Of a DNA stretch of 42,849 nucleotides, positions 198 through 22,171 are shown in pieces. Every line of letters starts with the position of its first letter. Position 1 is the stretch's first letter. This DNA comes from Leptolyngbya sp. FACHB-36. GTDB lineage: Bacteria; Cyanobacteriota; Cyanobacteriia; Leptolyngbyales; Leptolyngbyaceae. The notes beneath the pieces are model-generated. The model ran no database searches, had not been told where the DNA came from, and worked only from the letters and a program-made list of their open reading frames with translations. The translations under genes and the position numbers were made by a program. The stretch lies in assembly GCF_014695955.1 (NCBI RefSeq), contig NZ_JACJPG010000459.1, forward strand, positions 1 through 42,849. Reading direction: 5' to 3'.

Positions 198-257
198 ATG
201 TCCGGCAAACTCATCTCCGGCAAACCTATGTCTGGCAAACTTATGTCTGGCAAACTT
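198..257 (+). repeat. Four tandem 15-bp units at the start of uraH
   Basis: Units at 198-212, 213-227, 228-242 and 243-257 share the pattern AT(G/C)TC(C/T)GGCAAAC(T/C)(C/T). The last two are identical. The unit length is a multiple of three, so unit gain or loss keeps the frame and only changes how many MSGKL copies precede the catalytic domain. Confidence 0.95.
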
Positions 258-602
258 ACGACGCACGTTCTGGATACGGCTCAGGGTCGCCCTGCTGCCG
301 ACTTGACCATTGAACTATGGGCGATCGACCCTGCCTCCGAGCAAAAAACGCTGTTAAAAACCGTGCAAACGAATACCGACGGACGCACAGATGCGCCATT
401 GCTGACGGGTAAACTCCAAATCGGCGTTTACGAACTGGTGTTTGCAGTTGGTGATTACTTTGCTCAGTCATCCCTCAGCACACAAACCCCGCCGTTTCTC
501 GATCGGGTTCCGGTTCGCTTCGGCATCGCGGATGCAGCTACTCACTACCATGTGCCACTGCTGGCGTCGCCGTGGTCCTATAGTACATATCGGGGAAGTT
601 AG
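198..602 (+). CDS. uraH: 5-hydroxyisourate hydrolase (transthyretin-like)
   Basis: This enzyme hydrolyses 5-hydroxyisourate, the product of urate oxidase, to OHCU. Seen: the family opening KLTTHVLDT with its active-site His (residue 23 here), an Arg in TDGRTD (63), a His in THYHVP (118), and the diagnostic C-terminus YRGS. The size of about 115-134 residues is typical. The N-terminus is odd: four 15-base units encode [20 protein letters not shown], giving in-frame ATGs at 198, 228 and 243. The family normally starts where the ATG at 243 lies, so 198 gives a 15-residue extension. No strong ribosome binding site decides between them. The deaminase gene follows after 25 bases. Family assignment is secure; the start is not. 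Confidence 0.95.
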
Positions 603-627
603 TCGTTGCATTCGTCATTCATGCTCT

Positions 628-1992
628 ATGCCAACGCTGCTGGTTAAAAACATTCATACGCTAGTGACGATGGACGCCGATCGTCACGAAATCCGACACG
701 GAGCAATCTTCGTGCGAGACAACGTGATTGAGCAAGTAGGAACGACCACAGAACTGCCGCAGACCGCAGATGAAGTGTTGGACTTACGCGATCGCCACGT
801 CGTTCTGCCAGGACTTGTGAACACGCATCATCATTTCTTTCAATGCCTGACGCGAGCAGTTCCAGCGGCACAAAGCTGCGATTTATTTAACTGGCTGAAG
901 ACGCTGTATCCGATTTGGTCAAATCTCACCGCCGAAGGCGTCTACATCAGCGCCCAGCTTGCAGCCGCTGAGTTAATGCTGTCCGGCTGCACCACCGCCA
1001 GCGACCATCTCTATCTTTTCCCCAACGATTGCACGTTAGATGACGAAATTCGAGCTATTCAGGCGATCGGGCTGCGGTTCCATGCCAGTCGCGGCAGCAT
1101 GAGCGTTGGTGAAAGCCAAGGTGGACTGCCGCCAGATACGCTGGTGGAGCGAGAGCCAGACATTCTCAACGATTCGCAGCGACTAATCGAGCAGTACCAC
1201 GATGCCGATCGTTATGCGATGCTGCGAATCACGCTTGCGCCCTGTTCGCCATTCTCGGTGTCGCAAGCCCTAATGCGCGAATCGGCAACCATGGCGCGAA
1301 CGTATCCGAACGTGCGGCTACACACACATCTGGCAGAGAATAAATCAGACGTCACCTACAGCCTGGAAAAGTTTGGCATGATTCCCGGTGACTATGCGGA
1401 ATCGGTCGGCTGGCTGGGTGAAGACGTGTGGCATGCTCACTGCGTACAGCTTAGCGAGGCGTCGATCGCCAAGTTTGGCAGAACCGGAACGGGCGTAGCT
1501 CATTGCCCCTGTAGTAACATGCGGTTGGCAAGCGGGATTGCGCCCATTCGCACCATGCTGAACCACGGCGTTCCGGTCGGCTTGGGCGTCGATGGCTCTG
1601 CCTCAAACGATTCGGGGCATCTGCTTCAGGAAGCCCGCACTGCCTTGCTGTTGGCTCGCGTGCGGAACTGTGATGCGGCAGAAATGACGGCGCGGCAGGC
1701 GCTGGAATTGGGAACAATCGGCGGTGCTCGCGTACTAGGGCGCGATGACATCGGAGTTCTAGCTCCTGGCATGTCAGCAGATTTTGTTGTCGTGAATCTG
1801 GACCGTCCGCAGTTTGCCGGAGCGATCCACGATGTTGTGGCGGCGCTAATTTTCTGTCAAGTCGATCGCGTCGATTACAGCTTCATCAACGGCAAAAAAG
1901 TGGTAGATCAGGGACGCTTGACCACAGTAGAAATGGAGCGGCTGGTCGAACGTGCAAACCAGCTGGCACAAGCATTGGTAGACGGCAAATGA
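628..1992 (+). CDS. 8-oxoguanine deaminase (amidohydrolase superfamily)
   Basis: Predicted to deaminate 8-oxoguanine to urate in the cytoplasm; the close relatives are the TrzN/AtzA-like and guanine deaminase amidohydrolases. Seen over 454 residues: the metal-binding HxH in PGLVNTHHHFFQ (His67, His69), His234 in HTHLAE, His271 in WHAHCV and Asp322 in GVDGSASND, which is the single-metal set of this subgroup. The frame is open upstream to 442, but that extension overlaps uraH and is unlike the family. The ATG at 628 begins the usual strand MPTLLVKNIHTLVTMD. It overlaps uraD by four bases (ATGA), which suggests translational coupling. Urate-forming activity fits the flanking urate-catabolic genes, so 8-oxoguanine is favoured over triazine or guanine substrates, but the substrate is inferred. 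Confidence 0.88.
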   Translation: MPTLLVKNIHTLVTMDADRHEIRHGAIFVRDNVIEQVGTTTELPQTADEVLDLRDRHVVLPGLVNTHHHFFQCLTRAVPAAQSCDLFNWLKTLYPIWSNLTAEGVYISAQLAAAELMLSGCTTASDHLYLFPNDCTLDDEIRAIQAIGLRFHASRGSMSVGESQGGLPPDTLVEREPDILNDSQRLIEQYHDADRYAMLRITLAPCSPFSVSQALMRESATMARTYPNVRLHTHLAENKSDVTYSLEKFGMIPGDYAESVGWLGEDVWHAHCVQLSEASIAKFGRTGTGVAHCPCSNMRLASGIAPIRTMLNHGVPVGLGVDGSASNDSGHLLQEARTALLLARVRNCDAAEMTARQALELGTIGGARVLGRDDIGVLAPGMSADFVVVNLDRPQFAGAIHDVVAALIFCQVDRVDYSFINGKKVVDQGRLTTVEMERLVERANQLAQALVDGK

Positions 1993-2486
1993 CCTACACG
2001 ATCGCAGACTTAAACCAGCTCAGTCAGGATGCATTTACTGAGGCATTGGGTGCGGTGTTTGAGGACACACCAGCGATTGCTCGACAGGCTTGGCACGATC
2101 GTCCGTTTGCAGATGTGATGGAACTGCATCAGGCAATGGTAGCGGTGGTGGACGCAATGAGCCAAGACGAGCAACTGGCGTTGATCCGAGCGCATCCAGA
2201 CTTGGGCACACGGGCAAAAATGGCACCCGCATCCGTGCAGGAGCAAGCCGGAGCCAGATTAGATCGATTGACTCCAGAGGAATACGATCGCTTTCTATCC
2301 CTCAATCAAGCATACAAAGACAGATGCGGCTTTCCATTCATCATCGCTGTTAAAAACCACACGAAAGCCAGCATTTTAGAAGCGTTCGATCGCCGCTTGC
2401 AGAACTCCCTCGACGCCGAACGACAGCAGGCGATCGACGAAATCGCTCACATTGCCCACTTCCGCCTGTTGGATTTAGTGAGGTGA
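1989..2486 (+). CDS. uraD: 2-oxo-4-hydroxy-4-carboxy-5-ureidoimidazoline (OHCU) decarboxylase
   Basis: Decarboxylates OHCU stereospecifically to (S)-allantoin, the step after UraH. The 165-residue protein is all-helical in character and has the family hallmarks: the catalytic HPDLG (His69), the SVQEQAGA segment with Glu85, and the substrate-pocket GFPFI at 114-118. Its start codon overlaps the deaminase stop codon, so the two are co-translated. The order uraH - deaminase - uraD in one tight unit argues that all three act on one flux. No urate oxidase is visible between them. Confidence 0.96.
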   Translation: MTYTIADLNQLSQDAFTEALGAVFEDTPAIARQAWHDRPFADVMELHQAMVAVVDAMSQDEQLALIRAHPDLGTRAKMAPASVQEQAGARLDRLTPEEYDRFLSLNQAYKDRCGFPFIIAVKNHTKASILEAFDRRLQNSLDAERQQAIDEIAHIAHFRLLDLVR

Positions 2487-5711: not shown

Positions 5712-5862
5712 TTTGGTAAGAACTAAGTGTTACATCTGAACAAGTAATCTTTATGTGCTTGTTTCCAAGACAACTTAAGCAGTACAATAATGGACTAAAC
5801 AGAATTCCCTGAATATATTCATTTATCTTTGTCATCTACAGCAGATAGTCAAACAACTCAAA

Positions 5863-6324
5863 TTAGATGTTGTCCTGTCCGGCTTCCCGCTCTAAAAGTA
5901 GTGTTACGGGTCCATCGTTTTTGATCGTCACCTGCATCATTGCCCCAAATTTCCCAGTTTCTACCCGCAAGCCGCTGGCTCGCAGTAGCGCGACGAAGCG
6001 ATCGTACAGCGCCTCAGCCTTGGACGGTGTAGCCGCGCGATCGAACGACGGTCGCCGACCTTTGCGACCATCGCCATACAGCGTAAACTGGCTCACCACC
6101 AGCAGTTCACCGCTGATCTCCTGCACAGATCGATCGAATCGTCCATGTTCACCGTCAGGAAACAGCCGCAGATCCAGGCACTTCCGCGCCATCCACTCCA
6201 GTTCAGCATCCGTATCCGTATCGGCAATACCCACCAGCAGGTTTAGCCCCCGTCCAATCCGCCCAATCACCTGTCCGTCCACGCTGACATGAGAAGCCGT
6301 AACGCGCTGAATCACAACTCGCAT
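5863..6324 (-). CDS. dtd: D-aminoacyl-tRNA deacylase
   Basis: Removes D-amino acids wrongly attached to tRNA. The 153-residue product begins [17 protein letters not shown], exactly like the family. It has the two dimer-interface active-site motifs: SQFTLYGD in the middle and [10 protein letters not shown] near the end, with the cross-subunit Gly-Pro. The frame stays open upstream to 6603, but that part overlaps the ferredoxin-like gene and is unlike Dtd, so ATG 6324 is chosen. The upstream gene ends 10 bases before it on the same strand, so the two are probably one operon. Confidence 0.96.
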
Positions 6325-6624: not shown

Positions 6625-6656
6625 AATTATGAATTGCAAATTACGAATTCATAATT
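6625..6656. repeat. Inverted repeat between cobW and the ferredoxin-like gene
   Basis: AATTATGAATT (6625-6635) and AATTCATAATT (6646-6656) form an 11-bp stem with a 10-base loop. It begins at the cobW stop codon. It is AT-only in the stem and could be an attenuator or mRNA-end structure within the operon. Confidence 0.5.
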
Positions 6657-7800
6657 ATTTACCAAAGCCTCGCCCACGACTGGTAGCTGGCAGCGTAAAA
6701 CAGTTCTCCACCTGCGATCGCAGCGCTTCGTGGTCTAAGTTCTGTCCAATCAGCACCAGTTGATTCTTTGGCGTGCTGGTCCATTCGCTATCGTCCAGCG
6801 AGAAGCGCTTGCCGCTGAGGTGGAAGATGTGCCGCTTAGGACTTTCACTGAACCAGAGAATGCCTTTAGCGCGGAAAACGTTCTCCGGTAGCTGATTGTC
6901 GAGAAAGTACTGAAACTTCTTGATATCAAATGGCTTGTCGCTCTGGATTGAGACGGAGGTAAAGCCGTCATTCTCTAAGTGGTTCGAGTGGTGATGGTGG
7001 TGCTCATGGTCGCAGTGCCCGTGGTCGTGGTCGCAAGCAGAGTGGTCGTGGTGGTCGTGCGCGTGGTCATGCGCCTCATCATGCGCGTGGTCGTGATGAT
7101 CGTGCGCGTGGTCGTGAGAATGCTCAGGCTCAGCGGCGTCAAAGTATTTATCCGACTCAAACAGCCCAACGCTAAGAATCACGGGCAGCGGAACTTGACC
7201 TTTAACAGATCGCAGAATCCGTGCTCCTTGCTTAATCTCGCGAATTCGAATCTCTAGCGCATCCAGATCGCCTTCGTCCACCAAATCGGCTTTGTTCAGC
7301 AGAATAATGTCACCGTAGGCAATCTGGCTGTAAGCAGCTTCGCTGTTGAACAAGTCCAGACTAAAGTTCTCGGCGTCCACAACCGTCACGATCGAATCCA
7401 GCCGCGTCATGTCGCGCAGCTCCGTGCCCAAAAACGTCAGCGCGACGGGCAGCGGATCGGCAAGTCCGGTGGTCTCGACAATTAGGTAGTCAATGTTGTC
7501 CTGCCGCTCCATGACCTTGTAGACCGCTTCAACCAAATCGTTATTGATGGTGCAGCAGATGCAGCCGTTGCTGAGTTCCACCATGCTGTTGTCGGCGTCA
7601 GTCTTCACGATCAACTCGTTGTCGATGCCAATTTCACCGAATTCGTTGACGAGCACCGCCGTCTTCAGTCCTTGCTGGTTCGTCAGAATGTAGTTCAACA
7701 GCGTTGTCTTACCGCTGCCCAAAAAGCCCGTAATGATGGTGACAGGCAAGCCGTGTTTGGAAGCGTCCATAGCCGATTCAGAAGTCGCGGCAGATTGCAT
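6655..7800 (-). CDS. CobW/COG0523-family GTPase metallochaperone
   Basis: A 381-residue G3E-family GTPase thought to deliver metal, usually zinc, to client proteins. Seen: Walker A GFLGSGKTT (25-33), the metal-site CxCC in NGCICCT (about 79-82), the NKAD guanine motif, and a C-terminal CobW domain. Residues about 225-272 are an extreme His/Asp-rich linker (HDHAHDHHDHAHDE... ending in five consecutive His), a metal buffer typical of zinc-handling members. The DNA behind it is a run of degenerate GTGGTCGTG/CGCGTGGTC repeats at about 6985-7130. I saw no clear Zur box in the 200 bases upstream. It starts the operon with the ferredoxin-like gene and dtd, and diverges from cysS. Confidence 0.94.
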   Translation of the reverse strand: MQSAATSESAMDASKHGLPVTIITGFLGSGKTTLLNYILTNQQGLKTAVLVNEFGEIGIDNELIVKTDADNSMVELSNGCICCTINNDLVEAVYKVMERQDNIDYLIVETTGLADPLPVALTFLGTELRDMTRLDSIVTVVDAENFSLDLFNSEAAYSQIAYGDIILLNKADLVDEGDLDALEIRIREIKQGARILRSVKGQVPLPVILSVGLFESDKYFDAAEPEHSHDHAHDHHDHAHDEAHDHAHDHHDHSACDHDHGHCDHEHHHHHSNHLENDGFTSVSIQSDKPFDIKKFQYFLDNQLPENVFRAKGILWFSESPKRHIFHLSGKRFSLDDSEWTSTPKNQLVLIGQNLDHEALRSQVENCFTLPATSRGRGFGK

Positions 7801-16154: not shown

Positions 16155-16472
16155 TCAAGCAGGTCTGCATTTACCAGCGCGAATTAGACCAACTCGGCGA
16201 GCGATCGCTTCTGACTGGGATGTAAAGGGACCCCACTGTTCGCGATCGCCAGCGTTTGTGGATGCTTGGCTAAGCATCACCTCACTTTCGGGCAGGATGG
16301 CACACTGACCATTCTCCTGCCTCACCACGTACCAAGAAGCGTCTGCTGTCATGAGTCTTACAAAGGGTGCGTAATTAGGAGGTCTGCCAATGAAGTTAAC
16401 CTCTAGCAGACATTCTGATAGTACACGGTTGGTTTTGGGAAAACTGCTTCTAGATTCAATGTTGATTGCCAC
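16155..16472 (-). CDS. Hypothetical protein, 105 aa
   Basis: A small soluble-looking protein that I do not recognise. There is no signal peptide, membrane helix or metal motif. The middle (FVRLMTADASWYVVRQENGQCAILPESEV) looks like a small beta-rich domain, and the C-terminal part (GPFTSQSEAIARRVGLIRAGKC) resembles the conserved ends of small cyanobacterial hypotheticals. It is divergent from pilT with a 160-base shared upstream region and converges on ctp. That it is a real gene is inferred from its isolation and good reading frame. Confidence 0.65.
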   Translation of the reverse strand: MAINIESRSSFPKTNRVLSECLLEVNFIGRPPNYAPFVRLMTADASWYVVRQENGQCAILPESEVMLSQASTNAGDREQWGPFTSQSEAIARRVGLIRAGKCRPA

Positions 16473-16633
16473 GAGCAGCGCCCGCAGGGGAACCGCCCAA
16501 CTGGCACGAATGCAACTGAATCTTTCCGGATAGTTGAACGGTTTGGCAGTCGTTATTTTCAGTGGCGCAATCGTTCCAGCCCTTCCAATCGTCCTTTTTT
16601 TGCCGCTCGGAGCTTGTGTAGAGAAGTAGCGTT

Positions 16634-18046
16634 ATGACAGAACCCCAGCGTCCGCTTAGTTCGCCGCCACCGCCGCCTCGGATTCCGCCCGTTCCACCAC
16701 CGCCTGCACCCAGAATGGCGAGCAATGGAGCGACGGTCGCGGCAACCCAGCAAATGACCGCGCCCATGTCTACAACTGCTCTACCAACGATGGTGGCGTC
16801 GTCTGCAGCAGCAATGCCAGCGGTTATGTCTGACCACACCATTCCCGTTGGGCAAACCCCCACGGTTGCAGCACCGCCTGCGGGGTCTGCGAATGGGCAC
16901 CGTTCTATTCCGCCGTCTGCACCTGCAAATGGGCACCGTCCGGCTCCGCCACCTGCCATGCCGGTAGCTCGCAAGCCAACTAATGGCTCACCAACGCTAG
17001 CAGAAATTGTGCGAACAGCCTATGATAAGGGCTTCTCGGATGTGCATGCGGGCGTAGGTGAGATTCCGCGCTTCCGCAACCGGGGAGAAATTGACACGAC
17101 GGATTGGCCCGTCACGGATCGCGACACCTTCTTTAGCTGGCTTCAGGAGATCCTCACAGATGAAGAGATCCGTCACTTCGAGGAGCATCTAGACTTTGAC
17201 GGCGCAACCCAATACGAGTTCGCCCGCGTCCGAATCAACATTTTCGACTCGCTGCACGGACCCGCGATGGTGCTGCGACTAATTCCGCTCAAGATTCTCA
17301 CGATCGAGCAGCTAAATCTGCCGCCTGTTTTCAAAGACATTTGCCATTACCACAAAGGCTTAATTCTAATTACAGGTCCAACCGGATCGGGTAAATCCAC
17401 TACGTTGGCAGCCATGATTGACTACATCAACAAGGAGATGCCAAAGAATATTATTACGATCGAGGACCCGATCGAATTCGTGCATCGCAGCCAGAAAGCA
17501 CTGATCAAGCACCGGGAAGTAGGAATGCACACCCTCAAGTTTGACAATGCCCTGAAAGCAGCGCTGCGGGAAGATCCAGATATCATTCTGGTGGGTGAAA
17601 TGCGGGACAAGGAAACAGTCAATACTGCCCTAAAAGCGGCGCAAACTGGACACTTGGTCATGGGCACGCTGCACACGAACAGCGCCGTCAAGACGATCGA
17701 GCGGATTTTACAACTTTACGAACCTGATCAGCAGGCTCCAATTCGGGTGTCGCTAGCGGAGTCGCTTGTCGCCGTAGTTGCTCAAGGCTTGTGTCGGACC
17801 ACTGATGGCAAACGTGCTGCATTCCACGACATCCTGATCAACACAGATGCGATCAGAGATTACATCCGCCGAGGAGAAATCGAGGAAATCGAGCAAATTA
17901 TTCCCCGCTGCACCTTTGATGGTATGTGCACGATGAATCAGTCACTCTACAAACTGTACGAAGCGGGACGCATCACCGAGGAAACCGCACTGGAAATGTC
18001 GCCGAAGCCAAACGAAATGGCGCAAGCGCTTAGAGGGCGGGTGTAG
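16634..18046 (+). CDS. Type IV pilus twitching ATPase (PilT family) with Pro-rich N-terminal extension
   Basis: A hexameric ATPase that retracts type IV pili, acting at the inner membrane. The 470 residues have a Pro/Ala-rich low-complexity segment (1 to about 115: PPPPPRIPPVPPPPAP and two ANGHR/NGHR repeats) not found in ordinary 350-370-residue PilTs. The usual N-domain (TLAEIVRTAYDKGFSDVH) follows, then Walker A GPTGSGKST (248-256), the Asp box, the Walker B region DPDIILVGEMRD and the His box GHLVMGTLHTNS. All catalytic motifs are intact. The long linker is reminiscent of the second, phototaxis-related PilT (PilT2) of cyanobacteria, but that assignment is tentative. GAGAAG precedes the ATG. 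The KaiB-domain gene is 75 bases downstream. Confidence 0.95.
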   Translation: MTEPQRPLSSPPPPPRIPPVPPPPAPRMASNGATVAATQQMTAPMSTTALPTMVASSAAAMPAVMSDHTIPVGQTPTVAAPPAGSANGHRSIPPSAPANGHRPAPPPAMPVARKPTNGSPTLAEIVRTAYDKGFSDVHAGVGEIPRFRNRGEIDTTDWPVTDRDTFFSWLQEILTDEEIRHFEEHLDFDGATQYEFARVRINIFDSLHGPAMVLRLIPLKILTIEQLNLPPVFKDICHYHKGLILITGPTGSGKSTTLAAMIDYINKEMPKNIITIEDPIEFVHRSQKALIKHREVGMHTLKFDNALKAALREDPDIILVGEMRDKETVNTALKAAQTGHLVMGTLHTNSAVKTIERILQLYEPDQQAPIRVSLAESLVAVVAQGLCRTTDGKRAAFHDILINTDAIRDYIRRGEIEEIEQIIPRCTFDGMCTMNQSLYKLYEAGRITEETALEMSPKPNEMAQALRGRV

Positions 18047-18121
18047 GATGTTGCTAAGTTTACCTGAGCGGGCGATCGCTCGTTCAGGAGCTGCCCCTGC
18101 ACATCCATCGGTGCCCCACTA

Positions 18122-18886
18122 TTGAAGCCCAACTCTAGCCCTCCCGTTCTATTCAAGGGAATTGCGCTATTTACGCCGGGGGGGGATTTAGTCTACTGCA
18201 TTGACCCGAACAAGCAAACTCGCTGGCACTTGCATCTGTGCGCTGCGCTGCAAGAACTACTGGGATTGCCAGAGCCGCCTCATTTTTTGGTGCCTTGCTA
18301 TACCGCAACGGTCGATCGCTGGCGTGATTCCCACACGCAGGTGATTCAAACAGCAGCCGAGGCAGCTCCTACAGTTCTCAGATATCAGCCACTCCTAAAC
18401 GTCATCTTCGAGACAGAGAATTTGATGTGGCAGCCTGCGTTGGTGCCAGAGGGGGTATGCGACGCGATCGTGCTGGCAACGTACCGTCAGCAGTTTCCAC
18501 AGCTTTGGGAAGCGCACGATCTGGTTGTGCGGTATGAACAGGCAGTGTCCTATACCCATACCGGCCTGGATGTCGTTGCCGAATCTGTAGATGCTCCCAT
18601 CACTGACCAAAGCGAAGGCTACGTTTTGAGACTATTTGTATCGGGGCACAGTTTAGCAACGGAGCGGACACTGCAAACGCTACACCAGTTTTTAGACCAA
18701 GCTCTGGGGCAGCCCTACACCTTGAAGGTAATTGATGTGCTGCAACATCCGGAGCAGGCAGAACGCGACCAGATTTCAGCCACCCCTACGCTGGTGCGTG
18801 TCCACCCGCGTCCGATGCGTCGGATTGTTGGAACGTTGCATACGCTCGATCAGTTACAGCGGCTGCTGGGACTACCAGAGAGCTAA
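18122..18886 (+). CDS. Two-domain protein with C-terminal KaiB-like domain
   Basis: The last 85 or so residues (from about 168) match KaiB in order and motifs: YVLRLFVSGHSLATERTLQ, YTLKVIDVLQHPEQAERDQI, SATPTLVRVHPRPMRRIVG. KaiB is the fold-switching circadian clock protein; the same thioredoxin-like domain senses KaiC in SasA. The first 165 residues form a separate domain (ALFTPGGDLVYCIDP, PHFLVPCYTATVDRW) without a familiar motif. The start is not settled: no ATG or GTG lies between the upstream stop at 18065 and the TTG at 18122, so TTG is used; GGAG lies rather far upstream. It sits between pilT and cofH on the same strand. A clock-related or light-signal role is inferred from the domain only. 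Confidence 0.85.
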   Translation: MKPNSSPPVLFKGIALFTPGGDLVYCIDPNKQTRWHLHLCAALQELLGLPEPPHFLVPCYTATVDRWRDSHTQVIQTAAEAAPTVLRYQPLLNVIFETENLMWQPALVPEGVCDAIVLATYRQQFPQLWEAHDLVVRYEQAVSYTHTGLDVVAESVDAPITDQSEGYVLRLFVSGHSLATERTLQTLHQFLDQALGQPYTLKVIDVLQHPEQAERDQISATPTLVRVHPRPMRRIVGTLHTLDQLQRLLGLPES

Positions 18887-18964
18887 AACTAAACCATACA
18901 CCCAAGGCTGTACTCTCCAAGGAAGCGTTACGCTTAAGAATGTATGCCTACCTAAGCTGCTGTA

Positions 18965-20116
18965 ATGCTTGACACGGTTGACGCTATCCTTAGTCGCGCC
19001 CTCAACAATCATGATCTGACCCCGGAAGAAGGCGTTGTGTTGCTGACGGCACGATCGCCCGACGCGATCGCTCAAATTCGCCGCACGGCTGATGTTCTGC
19101 GGCAGCAGCAAGTCGGTGACACCGTTACTTACGTGATCAACCGCAACATCAACTTCACGAATATTTGTGAGCAGCACTGTAGCTTCTGCGCGTTTCGTCG
19201 GGATGAGGGTGAAGACGGCGCGTACTGGCTCGATTTAGAACAAATTTTGCAGAAGGCAACAGATGCTGCCCAGCGCGGCGCTACCGAAATTTGTATGCAG
19301 GGCGGCTTAAATCCCAAAGCAAAGCGGAATGGCACCTCCCTTGCCTACTATGTGCGCATTATTGAAGCTATTCCCCAAGCCTTTCCTGATCTGCATCTGC
19401 ACGCATTTTCGCCACAAGAAGTGCAGTTCATTGCTCGAGAAGACGGACTGCGGTATGCGGATGTGATTGTGGCTCTGCGCGATGCGGGTGTCGGGTCGCT
19501 GCCAGGAACAGCAGCAGAGGTGCTGGATGACGACGTGCGGCGCGTGCTGTGCCCAGAAAAGATTGATACAGCAACCTGGCTAGAAATTCTTAGGACGGCT
19601 CATCAGCAGGGGATGCCGACCACAAGCACGATGCTTTCAGGACACATCGAAACGCCCATGCAGCAGATGCGGCATTTGCAGCACCTGCGATCGCTCCAGC
19701 AGTCGGCTTTGGAGCGGGGTGATCGAGGCATTACCGAGTTTATTCTGCTGCCCTTCGTGGGACAGGAAGCACCAAAGCCGCTGCGACGTCGGGTGGGTCG
19801 AGATCAGCCGGTGCTGACCGATGCCTTGCTGCTGACAGCCGTTGCTCGAATCTTTCTGGGACGCTGGATTCCGAATCACCAGCCTAGTTGGGTAAAGCTG
19901 GGACTGGCGGGCGCGATCGAGGCTCTGTCGTGGGGCTGTAACGACATCGGCGGCACACTGATGGAAGAGCACATCACAACAATGGCGGGCGCACAGGGTG
20001 GCACCTGTATGGAGGTGGAGACGCTGCAAGGGGCGATCGCGACATTAGGGCGTCCTTACCAGCAGCGAGATACGCTGTACCAGCCTGTTAGAAGCCCAGA
20101 AGTGCAGGCCGCATAG
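18965..20116 (+). CDS. cofH: FO synthase subunit CofH (radical SAM)
   Basis: Couples tyrosine to 5-amino-6-(D-ribitylamino)uracil in the synthesis of FO, the deazaflavin used by F420 enzymes and by cyanobacterial photolyases as an antenna. The 383-residue protein has the radical-SAM CxxxCxxC as CEQHCSFC (Cys68, 72, 75), preceded by NRNINFTNI, which marks CofH rather than CofG. It also has the SAM-binding MQGGLNP and the C-terminal [23 protein letters not shown]. The length is normal. CofG is not in this window; cyanobacteria often encode the two apart. The gene starts 78 bases after the KaiB-domain gene. Confidence 0.94.
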
Positions 20117-20428: not shown

Positions 20429-22171
20429 ATGATTGACAAGAAAAAGAAGCCGTCTCTCCTGCTGACGCTTGGAACTGTAGTGTTGTTGGTGGGTGGTGGT
20501 GGCGTAGCCTATTGGTTGCTGACTCAGCGGGGTGGCGGACCCGGAGAGCTACCTGTGGGTGCAGAAGCCATTCCTCAGGACGCGCTGATGGCAGTGTCAG
20601 TTTCGACTGATGAAGGGCAGTGGAGAAAACTGCGAGAGTTTGGCACACAGCAGAGTCAGGCAGCGTTTGACCAAAATTTGGCGCAGTTGCGCGATCGTAT
20701 TCTCACAGCAAACGGCTTCGACTACGACAGGGACATCAAGCCCTGGGTGGGCAAAGAAGTCACCGTAGCATTTCTATCGCCGCAGACTGGGCAAGCTCCG
20801 ACCTCTCCTCAGCAGCAGGCGACGGTTGCCGTTCTGCCGATCCGAGACGCCCTACGAGCAAAGCAGATTTTAGACAAGCCGCGATCGCCCGCTGCAGGTA
20901 AGCTGACAAATCGCGTGTATAAAGGCTTTCAGATTCAAGAGACCCAGGGCGGACCCTCACAGAACTACTCCGCGACGGTGCTGGATGGCAAGCTGCTGCT
21001 GGTAACAACTGACCCAAAGGCAACCGATCGCGCGATCGATACTTACAAAGGCGGGGCTGCTCTCAGCGCGACTCCGGGCTACACTCAGGCACTGGGGAAA
21101 GTCTCGGCAGTGCAGTCTTTCGGTAAGGTCTATGTCAACCTGCCCGCTGCCGCTGCCGTAACTGCCAATTCAGGGCGATCGGCGTCGCCGCAAAGTTTGG
21201 CGCAGGTGCAGCAGCTTCAGGGCTTGGCGGCAACGATGAGTCTAGAATCTGAGGGCGTTCGATTCAAGAGTGTATCGTGGCTGAAGCCGGATAGCCAGCG
21301 CAAGTACGACGTAAAAAATACGGCACGGCGAATGCCCGATCGCCTGCCTGCCGACACGCTAGTCATGACATCCGGCGGCAATCTGAAGAAATTCTGGGAG
21401 GATTACAGCCAGGGTGCATCAACTAGCCCTGTTGCCCCCGTCAATCCTGAGGCACTGCGAAACGGTGTGAGATCTACGGTTGGTCTGGACTTAGACAAGG
21501 ACTTGCTGCCCTGGATGGAGGGTGAATTTTCGTTGGCGTTGGTGGCTGCACCGGAAGGTGGGTCGCCCAACTTACCGTTTGGGCTGCTGTTTATGGTGCA
21601 GTCGAACGATCGCCGGACTGCTGATGCAAGCCTCAAGCAGCTCGACGATGCGATGGCAAGCAGGTACAAATTTAAGGTCGAGGAATCGAAGATCGGCAAC
21701 CAGTCAGTGACAAACTGGTCGCTACCGGTCGGTGGTCCAACGATTACTCGTGGCTGGTTAGATGGCGATGTCGCGTTTCTGTCGCTGGGTGCGCCGATCG
21801 CCAGCACGATCGTGCCGAAGCCCCAAGCATCGCTCTTAGATAGTGAGCCGTTCAAGAAAACCGTGCCCACTGAGCTGCAACCGAACAACGGGCACTTTTT
21901 CTTCAATGTAGACCGCGCCATTAATACCAAGGGTCTGCCGCTGTTTCAACTGCCACCGGGAAATCGGGAGATTTTTGCGGCGATGAAATCGATCGGCGTC
22001 ACGGCAGCAATCAGTGATGAACGCAGCACGCGCTATGACGTATTTGTTGCCCTGCAAAAGAACGGCAATCCCGCGCCGCTGCCTAGCCCAACAATTCCAC
22101 CCACCACAGGCACCTCCAGTGGGTCGCCCAATCCTGCCTTGGGCATTCCTGCTCCGGTTCCGTCGCCTTAG
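20429..22171 (+). CDS. DUF3352 domain protein with N-terminal membrane anchor
   Basis: A 580-residue protein of the DUF3352 family, widespread in cyanobacteria, function unknown. Seen: a cytoplasmic Lys-rich start (MIDKKKKPS), one hydrophobic helix (LLLTLGTVVLLVGGGGVAYWLL, about 10-32), then a long extracytoplasmic part with two similar lobes (AIPQDALMAVSV.../LPADTLVMTSGG...) and the repeated phrase DIKPWVGKEVTVAFL / DLLPWMEGEFSLALV. The final 40 residues are Pro/Ser/Thr-rich. It is probably anchored in the inner or thylakoid membrane, facing out. A stem-loop follows the gene, so transcription probably ends there. Confidence 0.9.
   Translation: MIDKKKKPSLLLTLGTVVLLVGGGGVAYWLLTQRGGGPGELPVGAEAIPQDALMAVSVSTDEGQWRKLREFGTQQSQAAFDQNLAQLRDRILTANGFDYDRDIKPWVGKEVTVAFLSPQTGQAPTSPQQQATVAVLPIRDALRAKQILDKPRSPAAGKLTNRVYKGFQIQETQGGPSQNYSATVLDGKLLLVTTDPKATDRAIDTYKGGAALSATPGYTQALGKVSAVQSFGKVYVNLPAAAAVTANSGRSASPQSLAQVQQLQGLAATMSLESEGVRFKSVSWLKPDSQRKYDVKNTARRMPDRLPADTLVMTSGGNLKKFWEDYSQGASTSPVAPVNPEALRNGVRSTVGLDLDKDLLPWMEGEFSLALVAAPEGGSPNLPFGLLFMVQSNDRRTADASLKQLDDAMASRYKFKVEESKIGNQSVTNWSLPVGGPTITRGWLDGDVAFLSLGAPIASTIVPKPQASLLDSEPFKKTVPTELQPNNGHFFFNVDRAINTKGLPLFQLPPGNREIFAAMKSIGVTAAISDERSTRYDVFVALQKNGNPAPLPSPTIPPTTGTSSGSPNPALGIPAPVPSP

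Follow-up and report, generated by a model that had tools for sequence, protein, structure and literature searches.

The window analyzed here, the whole stretch of 42,849 nucleotides from Leptolyngbya sp. FACHB-36, features a pilT2-kaiB-4-cofH arrangement on the forward strand. The central gene, kaiB-4 (positions 18122-18886), encodes an elongated KaiB protein of 254 amino acids in which an N-terminal domain (residues about 10-138), a variable linker (residues 139-165, positions 18536-18616) and a KaiB domain (residues 167-249, positions 18620-18868) follow each other. Among KaiB-4 relatives, the linker varies in length between 17 and 50 amino acids and shows about 10% pairwise identity. The TTG start codon suggested in a first-pass annotation of the window is plausible: no other start codon lies between the conserved block and the stop codon that precedes it, and TTG is likewise the only option in many homologues.

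The same annotation had described the last third of the protein as KaiB-like. By sequence comparison this assignment is far beyond chance: residues 170-249 match the Pfam family KaiB (PF07689; E 4.1e-26, above the family cut-off), and phmmer aligns residues 167-249 with PDB chain 8ubh (1e-22) and residues 165-245 with KaiB from T. elongatus (2e-17). An arabinose-binding Pfam match at residues 124-217 was discarded as a chance hit, as it is below the Pfam cut-off, occurs in the window protein alone out of 40 members and overlaps the KaiB domain. Judged by profile scores, the kaiB-4 product is neither KaiB1, a protein of about 100 amino acids, nor SasA, just as had been proposed. It fails the two KaiB1 equivalog models (TIGR02654, 71.7 bits vs a cut-off of 145.3; PRK09301, 72.5 vs 110) and reaches 35.1 bits with a SasA-type model that has a cut-off of 342; a Pfam histidine kinase domain is not present. 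With KaiB1 encoded in the same genome, the KaiB domain shares 45% identity over 85 residues, whereas the full protein differs from KaiB1 by its extra N-terminal domain, a replaced K58 and the missing KaiB1 C-terminal tail. SasA resembles KaiB-4 in that a KaiB-like thioredoxin-fold domain is fused to another domain, and the fold matches include a SasA-CI structure (6x61); unlike SasA, however, the protein studied here carries its KaiB part at the C-terminus and has no kinase.

The protein belongs to a family described as 'elongated KaiB' in 2017 and as 'KaiB-4' in 2023. Schmelling and colleagues (PMC5520375) noted proteins of about 250 amino acids with an N-terminal extension of about 150 residues that is conserved only in cyanobacteria, and Wayment-Steele and colleagues (PMC10808063) named the KaiB part KaiB-4, which is close to KaiB1 and favours the fold-switched state. 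The window protein has the same architecture, with a C-terminal KaiB domain and an extension conserved in cyanobacteria. Of 291 genomes belonging to the same class, about half encode full-length homologues; those at 33 named loci are 48-64% identical to the window protein. Viral contigs were searched for relatives and yielded none. The Cyanothece gene 'kaiB4' (cce_0145) was left unused because this name may denote another gene. In one locus labelled Microcystis wesenbergii FACHB-1317 (L031), KaiB-4 is very similar to that of a locus from another genome and family (L080), and the label may be wrong. To the known features of the family we add a linkage to pilT2, of which we found no report in the literature searched, as well as an invariant WHxxLC motif and persistence past the loss of pilT2, which we likewise did not find there.

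The solved structure closest to KaiB-4 is PDB chain 8ubh (KaiB-TV-4), the KaiB-4 domain from Thermosynechococcus, which is a monomer and fold-switched according to NMR (PMC10808063). It shares 55% identity with the KaiB domain in the window and 90% with the KaiB part of a full-length homologue (L077) that has the same N-terminal domain and an adjacent pilT2. Residue K58, which is linked to fold-switching in clock KaiB, is present in KaiB1 of the window's genome; the corresponding KaiB-4 residue is Q217 (positions 18770-18772). Among 96 distinct KaiB-4 homologues, none has lysine at this position and 88 have glutamine. In a model of the full-length protein with a mean pLDDT of only 57, the KaiB part shows the fold-switched order of elements, and the PDB folds that match it best are those of 8ubh and of fold-switched KaiB bound to KaiC CI. 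This low-confidence model, in line with the K58Q replacement, predicts a fold-switched, thioredoxin-like state of the KaiB domain in the window. KaiB Lpp1115 from Legionella (4kun) is a further fold match; it is fold-switched as well but differs as a stand-alone domain with about 30% identity over the matched part. The cis-prolines 63, 70 and 72 (KaiB1 numbering) are retained in all 40 KaiB-4 members compared. When the KaiC-contact residues of KaiB (PMC8059507) are considered, V47 remains V or I in 39 and I59 is retained in 40 of these members, while A15 is mostly replaced by S and L60 mostly by S or T. Replacement of G89/D91 as a sign of a locked fold has been withdrawn, since a two-residue gap shifts G89 onto G250 and the C-terminal alignment is ambiguous. 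On inspection of the sequence, a CxxC active site is absent from the KaiB domain.

The N-terminal domain (positions 18149-18535) forms a conserved block in 96 homologues. It does not match any family in Pfam, NCBIfam or PHROGs, yet it is strongly conserved. The residues W35, H36, L39 and C40 of a WHxxLC motif (positions 18224-18241), which resides on the first predicted helix (residues 35-46), are invariant in all 96 sequences. Of 145 genomes of the class, 72 contain the domain, in frames long enough to also hold KaiB; the sole copy outside such a frame is split by a frameshift (G007). The domain was found only fused to KaiB and is unique to the KaiB-4 family. It had been called uncharacterised in the first-pass annotation, which holds for its function, while both the domain and the fusion were already in the literature. 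Structure prediction of both domains had also been proposed. For the N-terminal domain alone, the model (pLDDT 71) consists of two strands, a helix, two strands and two helices, and a PDB fold search with it returned nothing at E 0.001. Weak matches to chains of AP2, COPI and MglB had TM-scores of about 0.2 or less, and we do not claim a longin/roadblock-like fold. Stathmin matches of the domain profile were low-scoring, involved long helical proteins and are ascribed to chance.

The distribution of the N-terminal domain is nested within that of the clock genes. Of the 72 genomes that have the domain, 71 contain KaiA and 71 contain KaiC, the exception being the same draft genome (G123) in both cases. 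The domain is also missing from all 17 genomes that lack a KaiA match, this draft excepted. We do not take G123 as a case of KaiB-4 without KaiC: an assembly gap is probable, and a congener with a complete genome (G277) has KaiC. In the window's own genome, a different contig carries kaiA, kaiB and kaiC as a standard operon. KaiB-4 is missing from many genomes that have the clock and is therefore not essential to it.

Immediately upstream of kaiB-4 lies a gene for a PilT-family retraction ATPase (positions 16634-18046, forward strand; TIGR01420, 460.9 bits, cut-off 319.1), and downstream follows cofH for an FO synthase subunit (positions 18965-20116, forward strand; PRK07360, 536.9 bits, cut-off 426). 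Both neighbours had been named correctly before. The proline-rich N-terminus of the ATPase fits the definition of PilT2 (PMC12288463), and the protein is 40.6% identical to the PilT encoded beside PilB on contig C176. The gene is pilT2 and distinct from the pilT beside pilB. The spacer between pilT2 and kaiB-4 comprises 75 nucleotides (positions 18047-18121), and a scan of positions 16400-19100 did not detect any terminator-like site; this spacer is consistent with co-transcription of the two genes. Of 124 scored kaiB-4 copies from 13 families, 103 have pilT2 directly upstream in the same orientation, with a median gap of 62 nucleotides to the aligned start, and inspection of loci added six families (f22, f28, f31, f34, f35 and f39), giving at least 19 families in total; these counts were taken over the genomes as sampled and include shared ancestry. 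A reading frame of 105 amino acids without a family match (positions 16155-16472, reverse strand) has counterparts ahead of pilT2 in close relatives alone (L089, L091, L102 and L103).

In four examined relatives (L010, L016, L024 and L093) the slot upstream of kaiB-4 does not contain pilT2, and in two of them (L024 and L016) decayed C-terminal pilT2 remnants are still in place within about 300 nucleotides upstream of an intact kaiB-4. PilT2 is absent altogether from five genomes with intact KaiB-4, namely those of L010, L016 and L024, which are metagenome assemblies, the complete genome G143, which contains L093, and G021. Purifying selection acts strongly on both KaiB-4 domains (mean dN/dS about 0.07), and in the domain cores the ratio is 0.077 for pairs with a pilT2-less member (13 pairs) vs 0.068 for pilT2-bearing pairs (62 pairs). 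The notion of relaxed selection after pilT2 loss was dropped, since a whole-ORF estimate from few pairs (0.13-0.18 vs 0.05-0.07) was not upheld in the domain cores. As KaiB-4 stays intact and under purifying selection where pilT2 has been lost, PilT2 cannot be its only partner and is not an obligate one. Conversely, PilT2 occurs without KaiB-4 in many genomes. In L010, a transposase-like reading frame (5801-6187) directly follows kaiB-4, and the KaiB-4 C-terminus is altered there.

On balance, we consider it somewhat probable that KaiB-4 acts in association with the clock, as an adaptor or competitor that binds to the KaiC CI ring in a permanently fold-switched state. The nesting among clock genes, the kept contact residues and the fold-switched relatives together make KaiC the most likely target. 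Fold-switched KaiB and SasA compete for one site on KaiC (PMC6378743), and this shared site makes competition the likely mode; for KaiB3, also a KaiB paralogue, competition has been proposed as well (PMC11372060). The suggestion that the protein competes for KaiC, made in the first-pass annotation, is thus the best-supported reading. Following the result obtained by others for the Thermosynechococcus member, the KaiB domain would always adopt the fold-switched, thioredoxin-like shape, and such a permanent shape would let it dock to the CI ring while bypassing the slow refolding by which KaiB is timed. Once docked, KaiB-4 would vie with KaiB and SasA for their common site, and the N-terminal domain may thereby reach the KaiC ring as a putative effector or sensor. 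As an outcome, phase or amplitude may be tuned or clock output may be carried. A permanently fold-switched KaiB alongside a normal KaiABC clock would be expected to disturb timing, pointing either at a built-in tuner or at another target. That kaiB-4 mostly follows pilT2 directly suggests joint expression with the retraction machinery of type IV pili, although PilT2 is not needed for KaiB-4 to be retained. A pure clock role leaves the strong pilT2 linkage unexplained, and the KaiB from Legionella, fold-switched too, has no part in circadian rhythms (PMC10808063).

The linkage would find an explanation if KaiB-4 were mainly a partner of PilT2, its KaiB domain, whose clock target is a RecA-fold hexamer, being re-used on the PilT2 hexamer or bridging it to KaiC, such that retraction is gated by time of day. 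Besides the position of pilT2 on the same strand with no terminator-like site in between, a report of negative phototaxis in one Synechocystis PilT2 mutant (PMC12288463) speaks for this idea. Nevertheless, we regard a main function with PilT2 as unlikely, given that KaiB-4 is intact in the five PilT2-less genomes, that selection on its domain cores is about the same there and that PilT2 is also present in many genomes lacking KaiB-4. These intact copies likewise weaken the case for a direct role in motility. A combined arrangement, in which KaiB-4 bridges the KaiC ring to the pilus retraction motor with the KaiB domain reading KaiC and the N-terminal domain acting on PilT2 or, in PilT2-less lineages, on another motor or regulator, so that retraction would be gated by time of day, appears rather improbable to us.

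KaiB-4 could also work outside the clock and respond to redox state or a ligand, combining a thioredoxin fold with a sensor domain built on the His/Cys-bearing helix and acting in stress responses. The thioredoxin-like fold of fold-switched KaiB and the invariant H36 and C40 are compatible with such a function, and a non-circadian stress role has been described for Legionella KaiB (PMC10808063). However, the KaiB domain lacks the CxxC site, and near-strict co-occurrence with kaiA and kaiC would not be expected for such a protein, to which we assign a low probability. Compared with these alternatives, we continue to prefer a KaiC-directed adaptor or competitor. About half of the sampled cyanobacterial genomes encode KaiB-4. 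Its linkage to pilT2, its persistence and its motif make the function testable, and pilT2 and kaiB-4 offer a concrete gene pair for joint study.

Finally, a light/clock/motility module made up of pilT, KaiB-4 and cofH is very improbable, since cofH lies 3' of kaiB-4 in 11 of 18 examined genomes of the window's family and in only one genome elsewhere, although the three genes are adjacent in the window and several genomes of its family. Of the conserved three-gene order that had been anticipated, the pilT part stands across many families, with the gene being pilT2, while the cofH part does not; we regard cofH as a local neighbour and do not judge it part of the system, and the link to a photolyase cofactor drawn from it carries little weight. 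The gene following cofH in the window, and in several relatives too, encodes a DUF3352 protein (positions 20429-22171, forward strand; 581 bits). Farther away, a cluster for purine/urate breakdown resides at positions 198-2486 (forward strand), with HIUase (PF00576), an amidohydrolase (PF01979) and OHCU decarboxylase (PF09349), and positions 6655-7800 (reverse strand) encode a CobW-type GTPase whose long His/Asp-rich stretch is characteristic of metal chaperones.
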